A stretch of DNA of 64,000 nt, from assembly GCA_029962745.1 (NCBI GenBank), contig CM057161.1, positions 9,408,638-9,472,637 on the forward strand, written 5' to 3'. Source of the DNA: Echinometra lucunter. Its lineage: Eukaryota > Echinodermata > Echinoidea > Camarodonta > Echinometridae. The notes beneath the pieces are model-generated. The model was not told where the DNA came from. It searched no databases and saw nothing but the letters and a program-made list of their open reading frames with translations. The translations under genes and the position numbers were made by a program. Shown here piece by piece: positions 3,201 to 54,996 of the stretch (its first letter is position 1; each line of letters opens with the position of its first letter).

Positions 3201-6200
3201 AGATTGTGTCTCGCCCACCCGTGACTAAATAACACGAAAGTTTCCCCAAGTACATCCCTAACCAAGTTTGATTCACAAGAAAGTCTTGCAGGTAAACTTT
3301 AATGTTTGACCTAAAATGACCTTTAACCTTACCATGTGACCTGATGGCACAACAGCATGAATGTACCCCTAGTGAATCTATCATCCAAATTTGCTTGCTA
3401 CTGCAGCAACATGTGCCAAGTTATGTGTCATAAGAGAGTCTTGCAGGTAAACTTTAACGTTTGAAACAAGAAATGACAGAGGAAAAGCAAATTCAAGAAT
3501 TTGAAAACATCTGTAACATATGACCTCCAATGACCTTTCACCTTATCATGTGAAGTCCAACAGAATGATAACATGCACTTCCCCTTAGTGATCTGCAACC
3601 CAAGTTTGACTGAAAAGTGTGACACGGTTGCAAAGTTTTGTGTCATAAGAGAGTCTTGCACGTAAACTTTAACCGTTCAACGTTTGACCTGTAATAACCT
3701 TTGACCTGACCATGTGACCTCTGACTGGACCATAACATGCAGGTCCCCTTAGTGCATCTACAACCCAAGTTTGATAGATAAGTGTCACATGGTTGCAGAG
3801 TTTTGTGTCATAAGAGAGTCTTGCACGTAAACTTTAATGTTTGACCTGAAGTGACCTTTGACCTTACCATGTGACCTATGACTGGACCATAACATGCAGG
3901 TCCCCTCAGTGCATCGACAACCCAAGTTTGATAGATAAGTGTCACACGGTTGCAGAGTTTTGAGTCATAAGAGAGTCTTGCACGTAAACTTCAACGTTTG
4001 ACCTGAAATGACCTTTGACCTTACCATGTGACCTCTGACTGGACCATAACATGCAGGTCCCCTCAGTGCATCTACAACCCAAGTTTGGTTGAAAAGTGAG
4101 TCACGGTTGCAAAGTTATGTGTGATAAGAGAGTCTTGCACGTCAACTTTAACATTTGACCTGAAATGACCTTTGACCTTACCATGTGACCTCTGACTGGA
4201 CAATAAGATGCAGGTCCCCTTAGTGCATCTACAACCCAAGTTTGATTGAACAGTGTCACACAGTTGCAGAGTTTTGTGTCATAAGAGAGTCTTGCACGTA
4301 AATTTTAACGTTTGACCTAAAATGACCTTTGACCTTACCATGTGACCTCTGACTAGAGCATAACATGCAGGTCCGCTTAGGGCATCTACAACCCAAGTTT
4401 GGTTGAAAAGTGAGTCACGGTTGCAGAGTTTTGTGTCATAAGAGAGTCTTGCACGTAAACTTTAACGTTTGACCTGAAATGACCTTTGACCTTACCATGT
4501 GACCTCTGACTGGACCATAACATGCAGGTCCCCTTAGTGCATCTACAACCCAAGTTTGGTTGAAAAGTGAGTCACGGTTGCCAAGTTATCTTTCATAACG
4601 TTTGTGACGGACGGACGGACGGACGACGGACGGACGACGGACGGACGACGGACGGACGACGGACGGACGACATTTGGATCCCTTAGTCTCGCCTTCACCT
4701 CCGGTGGGCGAGACAACAATAAAAATGATGTTTTGATCATGCTTACATTAGGAAATCATCACAACAGTGTCATTCTCTGCTGTTTTGAAAGCTATTAATT
4801 ATTTGTGTCATCTACATGCCCCGATCTACATGCAGATATTTTTTAATGAATAGTTGCCTAGATACGCAGGTGCGATCATGCACTGGAATGTTATGCAAGT
4901 TTTGGCCTGCTCGCGTATCGAATAAATGCGATAGCCTCAACAGAAGTTAGAAACTTACGTTATCAAGAGTTGAGACCTGCATCACATTGAAAGTTCTTTG
5001 GAAATTATGATGGAATATCAATTTTTGGTAATTATGCTGAAGTGATCATCTCTGTCCCCCCCCCCCCCCCTTTTCTTGACCATTTTTGTCATTTCATATC
5101 ACGTCGTGCGTTCCAATTCGGTCTTGTATAGTGTGGTTTGCATGTGTGTACCGCAACCGGCCGACAGGCCTACTGTTGCGTCTTTCAGTATGAACCTGAT
5201 CGATCATTCATTAATACTGTAAAAATCTATTCTTCTGAACACACATTGACTGTGGGGGTTAGAAAATGTGTAACTTCTAAGAAAATTGAGAAAATGTGAA
5301 ATTTCATGTACAAAGTGAATGGAGAGCTGCTCGCATATGATGTCATCAGTGTTGCGAATGTGCAGAGCCAAGAGTAATTTACTAGAAAATGTAAATGAGT
5401 GTAATTTTCTTATTCTTCGACCGATTTTGCTCATTTCTTTTTTTAAATGCTGTTCAAATTTAACTCCTTTTATTGAAACAGAGAAACTTCTGGAGTGGAC
5501 TTTGCCTTTAATATTCAGGGGTGGTATTCTGAGACTGTTTTAACTCTGTTTTAAGTCTGTTTTAGCAAATCGGTATTCTGAACATCATTTTATCTCTGTT
5601 TTAACTTTTGTTTTAACTTTTGTTTTATCTTTCTAACCGCGCATTTTAATTTGCATGCTTGGCGCAAATGCAATAACACGGTATTCTGAATTCCGTTTTA
5701 TCTTCTGTTTTAACTTTTTCCACTGGACAATTCATGCTCATGAAATAAAACAGGGTGGGAGGTGTTTTAACTTTGTATGTGGTATGTCATGGCGGCAATT
5801 TTTCCCGCCCATTGTGTTTTTGGTTGCAATGAGGGGGATAACGAGATCCAGTAAACCTTTCTGATATTCCAAAACAACATTTCGAGAGAATTTTTGCCTC
5901 GCTTGGAGAAATTTGGCAGTTGTCTGCGATAATATCAGAGATGATTTGCACAACTAATTCTGTGACTTTCTGTCACATCCTCGCGCGCATCAGTTAAATC
6001 AAGCAAGAAACTAAGCGCAAATTAATGCGCTCACTTACAACGCGAATATAAGTTCTCGCACCCCTTCCTCAGGGGGCAATCTTATTGGCTGAATCATCTT
6101 TGAACCATCTCTAACGACTTTCCCTATTGGATGATATTTTTGCGGTGGGTGTGGCTTCAATGACTTACAACACCGTTAAAACAGTTCCCAGAATACCGTT

Positions 6201-6754: not shown

Positions 6755-8598
6755 CTTTCACATCAGCTGAAGTTAAAATCATGTTACAGAACATGTGCAA
6801 ACCTCTTCATTAAAAAATTATTGGATGACTCCACGCACATGCTTTTCAGAATTAGCAACAACTTATTGAATTGGGATTAAAGGAAAATGAAACCCTGGGG
6901 AAATATCCTTTTTAATGAAAAGAGAGGATAGAAAGAAGCAATTTTTTTAAAAGTTCCATCAAAATCAGTTACGAAAATGAGGAAATTATGAAAGTTTGAA
7001 AAGTCTCAATTTACTTTCGGGGGGGGGGGGGGGGGGGGGGGGGTGTAATGGGAGTTACAGGGGGCTACAACCTACTTCTTCTGTGAGTAGAGCACCTCCA
7101 AGGATACAGTAAGACCATACAAGTGATTCTACTGGCTCACAATGAAGCAACCCCGTCATGCCATAATAGAATTAGAGACCAGCTCCATCCGTTGGGGGTG
7201 GGGGGGGGGGGGTAATGGGAGTTAGAGGGGGCTACAACCTACCTCCTTCTGTGAGTAGAGCACCTCCAAGGATACAGTAAGACCATACAAGTGATTCTAT
7301 TGGCTCAGGATGAAGTAACCCTGTGATGCCGTGATAGAATGAGAGACCAGGTCCATCCGTTGGGGGCGGGGGGGGGGGGGGGGGGGGTAATGGGAGTTAG
7401 AGGGGGCTACAACCTACTTCTTCTGTGAGTAGAGCACCTCCAAGGATACAGTAAGACCATACAAGTGATTCTATTGGCTCAGGATGAAGTAACCCTGTGA
7501 TGCCGTGATAGAATGAGAGACCAGCTCCATCTGTTGGGGGTGGGGGGGGGGGGGGGGTTAATGGGAGTTAGAGGGGTCTACAACCTACCTCCTTCTGTGA
7601 GTAGAGCACCTCCGAGGATACAGTAAGACCATACAAGTGATTCTATTGGCTCAGGATGAAGTAACCCTGTGATGCCATGATAGAATGAGAGACCAGCTCC
7701 CACACAGAAGATACCCACACCGCTGATGAGGGAAGAGATGTGACGCATATTGCTGAAACCATACCTGGTGAAGCAAAAGTAAATCACAGTATTACATAAT
7801 AATGATAATAATGCAGCACATTTATAATGCACCTAATACTGTGTTTCTAGGCACTGTGGTGCTGTTGTCCCTGCAGCGATTATGTGAAGCACTGCTCTTG
7901 TATACCCACTGGAAAGCTGGGATAACAGCATCACGATTAAATGTATATTACGGAGAGGCAAATCAATTCAACTTGTACAGATTTGAATAAATGGGTTTTT
8001 AACATTATTTTGAAGGTGTGTATGTATACCTGTTAGGACTAATAATACCATGGTGATAATGATAAAAGCATATCGATTTTTCCCCTTAAGTTCTTCATAA
8101 AATTGATAAATTGAGTTCATGAATTAAGGATGAACCCTTTCAATAAGATAAACTTCTTTTGTAACACATACTGCTAAGTGTCTCAATATATTATGCCAGT
8201 ATTTAGTATTCACAAGTTAATTCCTACATTATAATAAAAACCTGCTACCAAATCAAAATCTGTCAGGGAATTTGTAATTCAGGCATAACTTACGGATGAT
8301 CCCTTGAGGGTTTCTTGATAGATTGGTGTATTCCTAAGGCAAGAATGCACTGATTACACACATCTGCTAGAGAGTGTATAGCTTCTGAGAACATACTGGA
8401 CGATCCGGAATAGAGCCAGGCCATCAGCTTGAACACAAAGTTACCCGTGTTGCTAGGATTTGAAATGTAAAATATGAGTACAGATAGGTCAATCCATAGC
8501 ATTGATTCACAATGAAAATTTTACATATTAAGAACCGTCTTATTGCAGTTCAAAATTGCTTTTCGGGGGGCTTAATTATCCTTCTGTCCCCCCTTCCC

Positions 8599-32258: not shown

Positions 32259-32792
32259 CTCTTTCTTTTGATGTCAAACGTCGTTACCTGAGCCATGATC
32301 CTTTTCTTTGTAATCATGTAAACTTCTATAAACATGTTTTAAAGGATACCAGAAGAAAGCTCAAAACTGCTCTCCAAAAGCAAGTCAAGATGCTACTTAC
32401 AATCCCACATCCTGCAGCTGTGTCTCTGAACTGCACAAACAAAGTGCTTATCAACAGGATATTTCGATAGATTAATCTTTTTTATTATTTCGAAGAAAAT
32501 GAAGGCCAACGGCCGAAAAGTTAATTCTTTCTTTTGATGTCAAACGTCGTTACCTGAGCCATGATCATTTTCTTTAGTAATCATGTAAATTTCTATAAAG
32601 ATGTTTGAAAGGATACCAGTAGAAAGCTCGAAACTGCTTTCCAAAAGCAAGTCAAGATGCTACTTACAATCCCTCATCCTGCAGCTGTGTCTCTGAACTG
32701 CACAAACAAAGTGCTTATCAACAGGATATTTCGATAGATTAATCTTTTTATTATTTCGAAGAAAATGAAGGTCGATGGCCGAAAAGTTAACT
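32259..32792 (+). repeat. Tandem duplication, two ~266-bp units
   Basis: GATGTCAAACGTCGTTACCT occurs at about 32270 and 32536, and the next 240 bp match closely, ending ATGGCCGAAAAGTTAA or ACGGCCGAAAAGTTAA. Unit 1 is open as FYKHVLKDTRRKLKTALQ, a basic run of the kind seen between endonuclease and reverse transcriptase domains of LINEs; this assignment is tentative. Confidence 0.8.
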
Positions 32793-37869: not shown

Positions 37870-38063
37870 CTATGTGTCTTCACTGTCAACGTTCTCAACG
37901 ACGTCGATTGATGAGATGCCGCTGACGTTGTCTTGCGGTGGTCGTGGGCCATGGCTGGTGGTCGGAGCGCTGAGGAAGTGGACGACGCGATGTCGTTTGA
38001 AGTCGTACCTGGCCGAGTGAGACCCGCGTTCACCTAGGATAGCTCTTCGCTCTTCGGAGATTG
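37870..38063 (-). CDS. Beta-thymosin-motif gene exon 3: end of motif and tail
   Basis: Acceptor TTTACTTCTAG; codes ISEERRAILGERGSHSARYD through SSIDVVENVDSEDT and TAG at 37872-37870. Composition stands out from the AT-rich flanks, supporting real coding sequence. Confidence 0.75.
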
Positions 38064-41000
38064 CTAGAAGTAAAGTAAAAATGAAAAGTAAAAATGAAAA
38101 TATATACAACAAAACTGGATATAATTTCAAAACAGAACAATAACATCTGTCATGCATATTAGCCCAAATCAGGGAAAATCTATAAGAACTGATACTGCTA
38201 AATCATGTCTTGAACTTGAACTTGAAGTTGAACTTATCTAATACACATGATAAATGTCTTAAGTGGGCGGGTCCTTCAGAGTAAACCTCTCCCTTCAGCA
38301 CGGAGAGAAAATGAAATTATTTCTCGGCGTCAAATGTTGTTCTATTCTACGGGAATCCCCCTCCCTGCTTCTTCCCGATCCACCACATAACGAATTTTTC
38401 ACCATTTCACATTAAAAAGAATCGCTCATCTCAAGTGGATCCTTGTTGCTTATAACAGCGATCCCTCCCCCACGAATGGCCCAACACTACGCCATTTAGA
38501 GTAGACAAATTTTGCTTACTTTTATGAGTTGGCAGTGTATTTCGAGTTGACGTTTCGACGTGTCTGAGTTGGTTGACATCGAAGTTTTTGAGGAATTCGT
38601 TGTTAAGGCATTGTCGAATCGTATCACATTGCCCGCATGGTTCAGCTCGGTAAGGTTCTGGCTTGAATCTGGAAAGAAATGGGCGACAAAAAGCACAAAA
38701 CATATTACTCACATATAATGTTTCCTCTGTATAGTACGTGTATGCTAACTAATTATGGAAGCATAAACCGATGAACTTCAAGGATTGGAAACCTCAAAAA
38801 CATGCAAAATAGCATGCCTGAATGTAGGGTATAAGTCCGAAGAAATAAATTATGTTTTAAAAAAATCTCGTTTTCCATAATAACAGCAGTAAAAATAGGC
38901 AACATGGCCTGCTTTGATGACAAAATTACTTAAAAGTTTTCTGTTTGAGGTGATAGTGACAAATAGATGAGATGAGAACATGAATCATTACTAATTTAAT
39001 TCAGACTAAAGAATCTGATCTGTGGATCAGATTCGCATATTGAAAAATAACATTAAAAAGATAATACCTTTGAAATATACATGGTCAAATGAATATTTCT
39101 TATATATGAGTTATCTCAAACAAGAACTCTGAGTAAAAACTAGAGTTAATGTTAATCCTATATGAAAAGGGTATTGAAGCGTAATAACTATGCTTCCAGT
39201 ACAGTTGAAGCCTAATCGAAGTCGGTGTGGGTGCTAAAACCTTGTATCTAAATTTTCGATGAAATTCACTTGTTTTCATAATTATAATTTTTCACCCCGC
39301 CTAAATGTATTCAATGAAAAATACAAGGGCCTATAATGTTCTTCCAAAGTTTTCCGTTTATCACTGTCATCTACCATGCGAGAGTCCGTGACACCGTGCA
39401 GGTAATATGATGTCCACTTAGATAATGAGATGCTCCATTTATAATGACATTCCATTACAATTCGCTATCATCTCTTCCAATTAGTCCCAATTCTTTGCCC
39501 AGTCAACGATTCCACTGTTTGTATCGTCTTCTCGATCGTTATCGATTTTGCCCAAAGTCCGCCCCTCTTGGAGAAACCCCTATTGTTTGATTTTCCCCCT
39601 CTCTGTCATTCAGTGGGGCGAATCTCCTCAATATAAAAGGGAGATGAGAAAGAGGACAATGGGAGACCAGCTAGCAAATACAACGTATCATCTAGCTAGC
39701 AGCTGCTTTAAGCCTGGAGCTTTATATGAGAGTAACTGATGTTAGCAGTGAGCAATTGGAGAGTCAATGCAAGCTATCAGGCCGTGAGTTACCACCCAAG
39801 GTCTCCTAAATGATGAAACAGGAGAAAAATTGATAACGACCGAAAAATTGATAGCGGCGAAATGAAATACGCTTTTAAAATTTTCAGGAGTGAAAATTTC
39901 CTCAATTTTTTTTCTTCTCTGTCTAGTGGATCAAATCTTGATGAGAAAAATTACTAATGAACTGGACTAGAATTCACTCTCAATATAACTAATACATCTA
40001 TAATGATTATATGCAGAACAATTCAGTTTTAGTAATAAGATTTATATTTTACAATACATTATTTTAAGGTCAAATCATCATGTTATGTTCCAAAAATTAC
40101 TGCTTGTTTTCATCGCTGTAATAATATGAAAACAGTAAGTCCAAGTTAATCTACAAAATTACAAAATTCAGTCATATATACAATACCCTAAAAGCCGGTC
40201 TCGCTAAGAATAATAGTAGCATCGGGCGTGTTATTCACTTTTCAGTACGTTTAATGGCTCATTTCATGTTTATAATCATAACCGTAATATCCGTATTGTT
40301 AATTTCCTCCCATTTTTAAAAGAAATTGGACTCGCTAGATAATGCTGATTTTTATTATTATTATTATTATTAATTCAACCACATTTTAGCCTGTAACATC
40401 AACCATTTCTTGTCACAGCACAATCACAATTCTTGTTGATATCGTTTTTATTCCATGATATGATTTCACATCCTGCGTATAATGTCCAGTAGTATACTAT
40501 TTATTACAATATACATACGTGTAATGTCTGTGCCGACTCCAACGGAATACTTCGAAGCAAAAATGTAAACGCTTTGATGTTAAATATAAAAAAAAAAATC
40601 ATTCCACGACTACGCACAGTCCCAACACATATAGCTTATGGGATAAACACAATTGTAATGATATCAAACACGAATTATGATTGGCAGACGAGAGGCAAGC
40701 AAAATACCATGCTCGGTTTATTGACATGGATAATTATATCACCTGATCCCTGACCCTGACCTGTTGATGGTTTCGGATCTAAACTTGTCAAGAGCAAACT
40801 TCGAAGTACTCTGGCAGTGTTAACGACAAGTGTAGACATGGCTAGACAACTCCCAATCACAGGTGCACAGCAGAATACAGATATGATAATTACATGTTTT
40901 TTACACAACTCGGATCTAAATTTCATATTCACAAATGGTGTATATTGTATACTGATTTGAAGCCCATCAGCTTGCTAGCCCCCAAAGACCTTTGGAAAGA

Positions 41001-41712
41001 TGTCTACCTCACCTAATAAGTGTTGAGTTATACATAATTTCTAAGCCGAAAAATTAAATCATTTGGATTTTTCTATGAACAACCATTTGAAAGTATTTTA
41101 AACATGCTAATACAGTCAATACAGGTCTATCAATTTGTCAAATATTTGACCATAAGATATCAGACAGAAAATTATTCCAACGAATGAGAGTGAATTAATT
41201 TAATTTACTTTTTGCAAATATGATAATTAATTTTGTCACAGTAGGAATATATTTAGATACAAGTCCATTTTTAGGGAGTCCACTTGCAAGGTTGGTCTAA
41301 TGGCGGAATTTAAATATTCTTTGAAAAGTTAACTCTATATCTCACTCTATATATTAAGACTTTATCCAAATGTTGAATAATATAAACGTTCATACAATCT
41401 TTTAAGCTATGACCAGAATGTATACCTTATTCTCTCAGCATAACTGGCGGCATGTGCCGTTTTTGCTCTTCTCAACCCCGGCTTAGCTGGCTCGCTCCTC
41501 TGCAAACTCCAAAAGGTTGGCGGGCAACTTTCCCTTCGACTCGGGACAAGTTGCCCCTCTCTCTCCGCCATGACAATGGTAGACGCCGACACAGCCCATC
41601 GCCTGCCCGCACTATGCCAAGGCGGTGGCTTCGTCAGTCTGTTGGCAGCGAGCATGTACTCTCGACTCCTCAAGAGACGAGTTCTACGGTCTCTCAAAGT
41701 CAACAAATCCAT
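37870..41712 (-). CDS. Novel protein with one beta-thymosin/WH2-type actin-binding motif, 209 aa, three exons
   Basis: Exons 41712-41426, 38668-38520 and 38063-37870 chain in phases 2 and 1 with GTATAC, GTAAGC donors and TTTCCAG, TTCTAG acceptors. The start ATG has a strong context (A at -3, G at +4). Residues 1-96 are Arg-rich with few acids. Residues 97-124 contain a C107-x2-C110-x5-C116 cluster. Residues 125-151 read FDVNQLRHVETSTRNTLPTH then KTISEER, matching the beta-thymosin pattern F-D-x3-L-K-x2-E-T-x3-N-x-LP-x3-TI-x2-E. LRHVET replaces the actin-contact LKKTET/LKHVET. The tail (152-209) is basic, then acidic, ending DSEDT. Actin-monomer binding is inferred from the motif only. I know no family with this whole architecture. 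Confidence 0.68.
38520..38668 (-). CDS. Beta-thymosin-motif gene exon 2: Cys cluster and most of the motif
   Basis: Acceptor CATTTCTTTCCAG has a good pyrimidine tract; the donor is GTAAGC. Codes FKPEPYRAEPCGQCDTIRQC, then FLKNFDVNQLRHVETSTRNT and LPTHK. A phase 1 intron splits the Thr codon inside the motif. Confidence 0.75.
39555..39665 (+). promoter_or_regulatory. Isolated plus-strand GC-box and TATA box
   Basis: CCGCCCCTC at 39559-39567 and TATAAAAG at 39632-39639 are arranged like a core promoter. Initiation would fall near 39665; the first downstream ATG opens only about 30 codons (ATGGGAGACCAGC...). It lies in the first intron of the minus-strand gene. No downstream plus-strand exon could be identified. 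Confidence 0.3.
40675..40930 (-). CDS. Signal-peptide-like ORF within intron 1, status uncertain
   Basis: An ATG opens MKFRSELCKKHVIIISVFCC then APVIGSCLAMS, with the charge and hydrophobic profile of a signal peptide, then RVLRSLLLTSLDPKPSTG and a Gly/Gln stretch. All GT donors available near the end are phase 1, which do not fit the phase 2 entry of the exon at 38668. It may be a separate small gene, an alternative first exon with another partner, or chance. Confidence 0.25.
41426..41712 (-). CDS. Beta-thymosin-motif gene exon 1: Arg-rich N-terminus
   Basis: From ATG at 41712 it codes MDLLTLRDRRTRLLRSREYM and on to HAASYAERIR with a GTATAC donor. The exon is GC- and CpG-richer than its surroundings, consistent with a 5' exon. 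The opposite strand is also open in places, so transcript evidence matters most here. Confidence 0.55.
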
Positions 41713-54182: not shown

Positions 54183-54679
54183 AATAGGAAAGATTGATTT
54201 TCATACATTTAAATCCTTATCATACAGTGATTTTCTGTAACTGTTAATTTGTCCTCGAATTCCATATTCACTTCATAGGAACCCTTTTTTTTGTAATTGA
54301 TCTGTCATTGTTTACTTCTTAATGTCTGTAATGTTTGTTAAACTTTTAGATTTACATGTCATGCTTTTTTTTTTAATGTATGACCAAATCAAATTTCCAT
54401 CTGATTTAGATAAATAAAGGTCTTTATTAGAAGTCTAACATCGTGGTTATAAGACACGTGTCATATGGGATATACAAAAATAGAATCTTGGACTTTGCAT
54501 AAATCCTCGCAAGCATGGGGGAGATGTTACAGAGCAGAGGATAGATCACTAATTAAATCAAACCCAATCAAATACTATATCTTTCAGTCCATTTTTTATC
54601 ATGACCCCTGTTTGCAAACCAAACATGTTAGTATCTTAAGATTTTTCATGTCGGAACATTATTATATTTATGATTCCAG

Positions 54680-54996
54680 GATGGGGTTGTGTCATAAAGC
54701 TGTTCGTAAAGTTACGCATGACTTTACGAAGGACTTGAATTTTGAAGTGCCAAATGGGATACTTAAAGTTTTTCATAATGTTTTAACAAAGTGTGATTGC
54801 ATTTCCCATAATCTCATTTAAATCATGGCCAAAAATGTACTTCCCAATTTAAAAATAAATCGTTAACAGTAGTAATGTTGATCTACGTCTGCATATTTCA
54901 CATTTAGCTGATGTGATTCACGATGACTTAGAATCCCATTTGGCTTGCCATATTCATTCGGAACTTCATGAACAGCTTTATGAAACAACCCCCAGG
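54680..54996. mobile_element. MITE with GGGGTTGTGTCATAAAGCTG ends
   Basis: GGGGTTGTGTCATAAAGCTG at the left and CAGCTTTATGAAACAACCCC at the right are inverted; ACTTTACGAAGGACTTGAAT-type and AAATGGGA / TCCCATTTGG blocks continue inward. The half copy at 25378 is related. Confidence 0.65.

Follow-up and report, generated by a model that had tools for sequence, protein, structure and literature searches.

A single beta-thymosin module in a longer sea-urchin protein with a candidate PP1-docking motif

The window analysed in this work (the whole stretch of 64 kb, C11:9408638-9472637, from a genome of 743 Mb in 2266 contigs) contains what looks, from its conservation, like a real sea-urchin gene and not a chance exon chain, and the protein that it encodes carries one beta-thymosin module between a basic head and a long tail. 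We propose, at a little short of even confidence, that this beta-thymosin-derived gene encodes a G-actin-linked targeting subunit of the phosphatase PP1. Most descriptions of beta-thymosins concern either short monomers or proteins built of tandem repeats, and a conserved single module in a longer protein, with the canonical intron kept, represents this module in a new architecture. If the PP1 site is true, it would provide an independent evolutionary route for the free-actin pool to steer a phosphatase, besides those of RPEL/Phactr and PPP1R15, and the PP1 reading is testable in the standard embryo models S. purpuratus and L. variegatus.

Gene structure and relatives in sea urchins

The earlier note had chained three minus-strand exons in phase into a protein of 209 residues, and this was confirmed when the gene was rebuilt from the window: the exons (287+149+194 nt) make 630 nt, that is 209 codons and the stop, with GT-AG at all intron borders (donors AAG/GTATAC and AAA/GTAAGC, acceptors TTTCCAG/A and TTCTAG/C) and intron phases of 2 and then 1 (Table 1). 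In-frame stop codons lie seven (TGA) and six (TAA) codons upstream of the ATG. Exon 1 encodes a basic head with the conserved blocks PPPWHS..RRW and SCPPTFWSLQR, and the net charge across residues 1-115 is +12.

Table 1. Coordinates, in the window, of the coding exons, introns and motifs of the gene.
Feature	Position	Strand	Remarks
Coding exon 1	41426..41712	-	codons 1-95 plus the first two bases of 96
Intron 1, phase 2, GT-AG	38669..41425	-	
Coding exon 2 (Cys residues; thymosin module, N-terminal portion)	38520..38668	-	
C107-x2-C110-x5-C116	38608..38637	-	C110 absent in Diadema; alignment of four proteins
Beta-thymosin module, first part	38520..38592	-	residues 122-145 plus the first base of codon 146
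Intron 2, phase 1, splitting codon T146	38064..38519	-	coincides in codon and phase with the intron of this genome's canonical beta-thymosin gene
Coding exon 3 (C-terminal thymosin helix, basic stretch, RVxF-like motif, acidic tail, stop)	37870..38063	-	
Beta-thymosin module, second part	38044..38063	-	remainder of codon 146 through residue 152
RVxF-type, PP1-docking-like motif RVVHF, then LSAP	37975..37989	-	residues 171-175

Of 173 candidates from a search of 5.8 billion proteins, three qualified as relatives (E <= 1): Lytechinus variegatus LOC121432120, Strongylocentrotus purpuratus LOC115922290 and one Diadema setosum protein, with identities to the window protein of 86%, 83% and 61%, respectively. 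As the relatives identified are sea urchins, we assign the window to a sea urchin too. All three are full-length, with a start common to all and a length within three residues of that of the window protein, and 116 of its 209 positions are identical across all four. A profile of these four recovered the same three relatives at E <= 10 (2691 candidates), and residues 94-166 used alone recovered two of them at this threshold among only 4 candidates. Outside sea urchins no relative was found with the full protein, the profile or residues 94-166, in searches of limited reach that require shared five-residue words and a similar length and that distant relatives in other echinoderms could escape. 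Within that reach the architecture seems so far to be known from sea urchins alone, and the earlier suggestion of a lineage-specific protein can be kept to this extent. The architecture had also been called apparently new, and for the protein this has to be narrowed: database entries from three species already contain it under the label 'uncharacterized', and what stands is that no description of the gene was found in the accessible parts of the literature on sea-urchin and invertebrate thymosins; the literature searched did not mention the gene identifiers of the two relatives either.

Identity between the window protein and that of Diadema is 20/27, 23/34 and 20/25 in the head (residues 1-27, 28-61 and 62-86), 11/29 over residues 87-115, 23/31 in the thymosin module (122-152), 9/14 over residues 168-181 and 6/28 over residues 182-209. 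Residues 1-86 (63/86) are about as conserved as the thymosin module, and no Pfam match over cut-off was obtained for them. The cysteine cluster C-x2-C-x5-C, which had been taken as a defining feature of the architecture, loses that role, as it is intact in three of the four proteins and has a G at the middle position in Diadema.

The protein is probably mostly disordered. AlphaFold (Lytechinus protein, three sequences) gave a model with a mean pLDDT of 45.5, too poor for comparing folds. Among its seven helices 3-27 and 144-168 are the longest, and helices 113-124 and 144-168 were placed, with low confidence, where the two thymosin helices should begin. A membrane-binding N-terminal helix was rejected, as the hydrophobic moment of segment 3-26 was equalled or exceeded in 4725 of 5000 shuffles (segment 3-20, 4541 of 5000). 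The predicted thymosin helices are not unusually amphipathic, with equal or higher values in 3034 (113-126) and 2297 (145-157) of 5000 shuffles.

Among the neighbouring frames, ten picked by hand from the 571 open frames (>= 45 aa) of the window gave no Pfam match over cut-off and did not help to interpret the gene. An open frame on the plus strand (54453-54818) matches the Pfam model of ribosomal protein S18 below threshold (16.8 bits for a cut-off of 21). Tandem units are found at 3514-4581 (157 bp, 6.8 copies, 89% matches), at 7020-7700 (174/342 bp with a long G run, 92-93% matches) and at 32260-32790 (two copies of 267 bp, 95% matches, possibly recent).

Descent of the thymosin module and probable binding of actin

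The beta-thymosin motif proposed earlier is recognised by the Pfam Thymosin profile (PF01290) at residues 122-152 of the window protein, with 27.6 bits (E 2.5e-6) for a curated cut-off of 24.8; the L. variegatus and S. purpuratus proteins score 30.0 and 29.8 bits, and that of Diadema 24.3 bits, slightly below the cut-off. There is one such match per protein in the window protein and the three relatives. The WH2 side of the earlier assignment fared differently, as no WH2 model was listed for the window protein among Pfam rows at E <= 10, a level at which the HMMER filters drop most matches above about 0.1, and the sole other row was DUF7835 (12.6 bits, cut-off 27). Furthermore, the 5 PDB sequences matched at E <= 10 are all thymosin-type actin binders (thymosin beta-9, thymosin beta-4 constructs and a ciboulot/thymosin chimera; best E 0.0054). 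A six-frame scan with a profile of six thymosin sequences, the window's own motif included, gave 60.7 bits for exon 2 (E 1.2e-17), followed by the exon-3 frame with 9.7 bits and then by 6.6 bits, and revealed no second thymosin module in the 64-kb window.

The same genome contains at least one gene for a canonical beta-thymosin of 41 residues (G000:C1420:707020-708741; Pfam 59.2 bits). The family search (E <= 0.001) listed this one match and missed the window's own exon, and the count is therefore a lower bound. The first coding exon of the canonical gene ends at the donor GAA A/GTAAGC, and the second, found by pattern, lies about 1.6 kb further on. In both genes the same codon, 21 residues past the F of FD, is split by a phase-1 intron (the break in the window gene is CATAAAA/GTAAGC), and 14 of 29 core residues are identical between the two modules. 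Because codon and phase coincide with those of the canonical intron, we regard the module as homologous to beta-thymosin, most likely by descent from such a gene, and not as a convergent WH2. A cockroach thymosin has coding exons of 139 and then 114 nt, implying phase-1 introns (PMC6801668), and this comparison is one of phase alone.

Nine residues of the module (F125, D126, L130, T135, N139, L141, P142, I147 and E149) do not vary among the four sequences, and its L is followed by R or K, so that the LKK of canonical beta-thymosins appears as LRH or LKH. A silkworm thymosin with LKHTET has been reported to form actin complexes and to inhibit polymerisation (PMC3284464). We consider it likely that the urchin protein binds G-actin. 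The Glu35-Gln36 pair, reported as necessary for sequestration by T-beta-4 (PMC3614969), is occupied by S148-E149 in the window protein, and in ciboulot domain 1/T-beta-4 the two halves of the module have been described as reaching the barbed and pointed ends of actin (PMC3464195). Because Glu35-Gln36 is replaced by Ser-Glu, and because what we take to be the position of T-beta-4 Lys14 is V or A in the urchin proteins, a weaker, ciboulot-like binder that permits assembly seems as likely as a sequesterer.

The RVxF-type motif and a possible link to PP1

An RVxF-type stretch begins 18 residues past the thymosin match. The earlier note had overlooked both this neurabin-like stretch (within residues 168-181) and the intron common with the canonical gene. 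Residues 171-175 read RVVHF in the window and L. variegatus proteins, RSVHF in S. purpuratus and RKVQF in Diadema, followed by LSAP in the window protein and SSAP in the other three, so that R, V, F and SAP are fixed in the four proteins and both x positions vary. All four proteins fit a strict RVxF pattern at residue 171, which 1.5-2.9% of 20000 composition shuffles also contain; under a loose pattern the share of shuffles is 27-35%. We set aside RIRF at residue 94, another RVxF-like site, as Diadema lacks it. Spinophilin RKIHF has been given as fitting the PP1 consensus (R/K)(R/K)(V/I)x(F/W) (PMC4364895), the second R/K of which is found in Diadema only. PDB chains of spinophilin and neurabin read RKIHFSTAPI and RKIKFSSAPI, and in ungapped comparisons the neurabin-peptide score was reached by 149 (window), 10 (L. 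variegatus), 2 (S. purpuratus) and 0 (Diadema) of 20000 shuffles, and the spinophilin score by 10, 1, 1 and 0, respectively. Likeness is greatest between Diadema RKVQFSSAPV and the neurabin chain, and of the four proteins that of the window has the poorest match. As this comparison was picked after the motif had been noticed, a discount of perhaps a hundredfold applies, after which the likeness is suggestive for Diadema and weak for the species of the window. The Diadema C-terminal segment, compared with PDB sequences, gave 0 matches at E <= 10.

Docking of PP1 by this motif is therefore offered as tentative, at somewhat under an even chance. The motif agrees with the sequence pattern in all four proteins and would be insufficient for membership among PP1 subunits. 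In the mechanism that we propose, the gene, derived from a beta-thymosin gene, adds to the module a basic head, encoded by exon 1 and the beginning of exon 2, and a C-terminal tail from the remainder of exon 3; the thymosin module would hold G-actin while the RVxF motif would dock PP1, and the protein could recruit PP1 to places determined by free actin, or let PP1 go as free actin changes. The link between PP1 docking and G-actin is drawn by analogy: in Phactr, G-actin and PP1 have been described to bind in competition (PMC7599070), and PPP1R15 has been reported to join PP1 and G-actin, with a helix at actin modelled as ciboulot-like (PMC4394352). A coupling of actin occupancy to PP1 docking, suggested by the same analogy, would be less likely than docking itself. 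The most complete form of the proposal, a sea-urchin-specific, G-actin-sensing subunit of a PP1 holoenzyme that arose from a beta-thymosin gene and whose docking core converged on that of neurabin, is on the unlikely side. No thymosin protein with a PP1 site was found among the papers listed, as judged by titles and abstract openings.

A serious contender, which we would also place under an even chance, is that the protein is a beta-thymosin-type G-actin binder without any PP1 link, the RVxF look-alike being incidental and the head and tail localising the protein to another scaffold, the nucleus or a membrane. The PF01290 and PDB matches and the canonical-gene intron fit this too, the basic head would suit it, loose RVxF patterns are as frequent by chance as stated above, and no phi-phi, R or W contacts, which in Phactr, neurabin, PNUTS and PPP1R15 lie downstream of RVxF, could be recognised by eye in the four-protein alignment. 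However, an incidental motif does not readily explain why R, V, F and SAP persist throughout the four proteins while the x positions change, nor the likeness to neurabin/spinophilin, strongest in Diadema. It is rather improbable that the thymosin module has become a remnant with poor actin binding, in a protein kept conserved by its head and tail: the Diadema score slightly below the Pfam cut-off, the changes of LKK to LRH or LKH and of E35-Q36 to S-E, and a conservation only modestly above that of the rest (23/31 between window and Diadema, 104/177 elsewhere) would agree with it, but the nine invariant residues of the module argue against it. Finally, a chance exon chain or a pseudogene can be practically dismissed given the three full-length relatives with their common start and closely similar lengths, the intact splice sites and frame, and the intron in common with a known gene.

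Comparison with known actin- and PP1-binding proteins

The architecture had been proposed to be unlike the short and tandem-repeat thymosins, and this is borne out by its 209 residues, its one module and its LRHVET. Canonical short beta-thymosins have about 40-45 residues and LKKTET. The window protein resembles them in its single module, in the phase-1 intron of the 41-residue gene and in 14/29 core residues, and differs from them in its length (209 residues versus 41), in its basic head and long tail, in having LRHVET for LKKTET and in having S-E for E-Q in the C-terminal helix. The beta-thymosins of echinoderms have been described in monomeric form (PMC4608725). With the tandem-repeat proteins of the ciboulot type it shares the type of module and a His within the LKKTET segment, which silkworm LKHTET also has (PMC3284464), whereas it has one module and flanks without recognised relation to them.

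Among the proteins that join actin and PP1, the Phactr family combines G-actin and PP1 binding in one protein, as proposed here for the window protein, although through RPEL and not through thymosin; moreover, the RVxF of Phactr1 overlaps RPEL3 (PMC7599070) whereas that of the window protein follows the actin module at a distance of 18 residues. PPP1R15A/B likewise combine an RVxF with a helix whose modelled position at actin resembles that of ciboulot (PMC4394352), but the two parts are in the reverse order, and the window protein gave no Pfam match to such a core. Neurabin and spinophilin (PPP1R9) share the docking core R-x-V/I-x-F-S-S/T-A-P, closest in Diadema, although the window protein has no PDZ match and the likeness stops after about 10 residues; these two proteins have been described as binding F-actin (PMC12185105).
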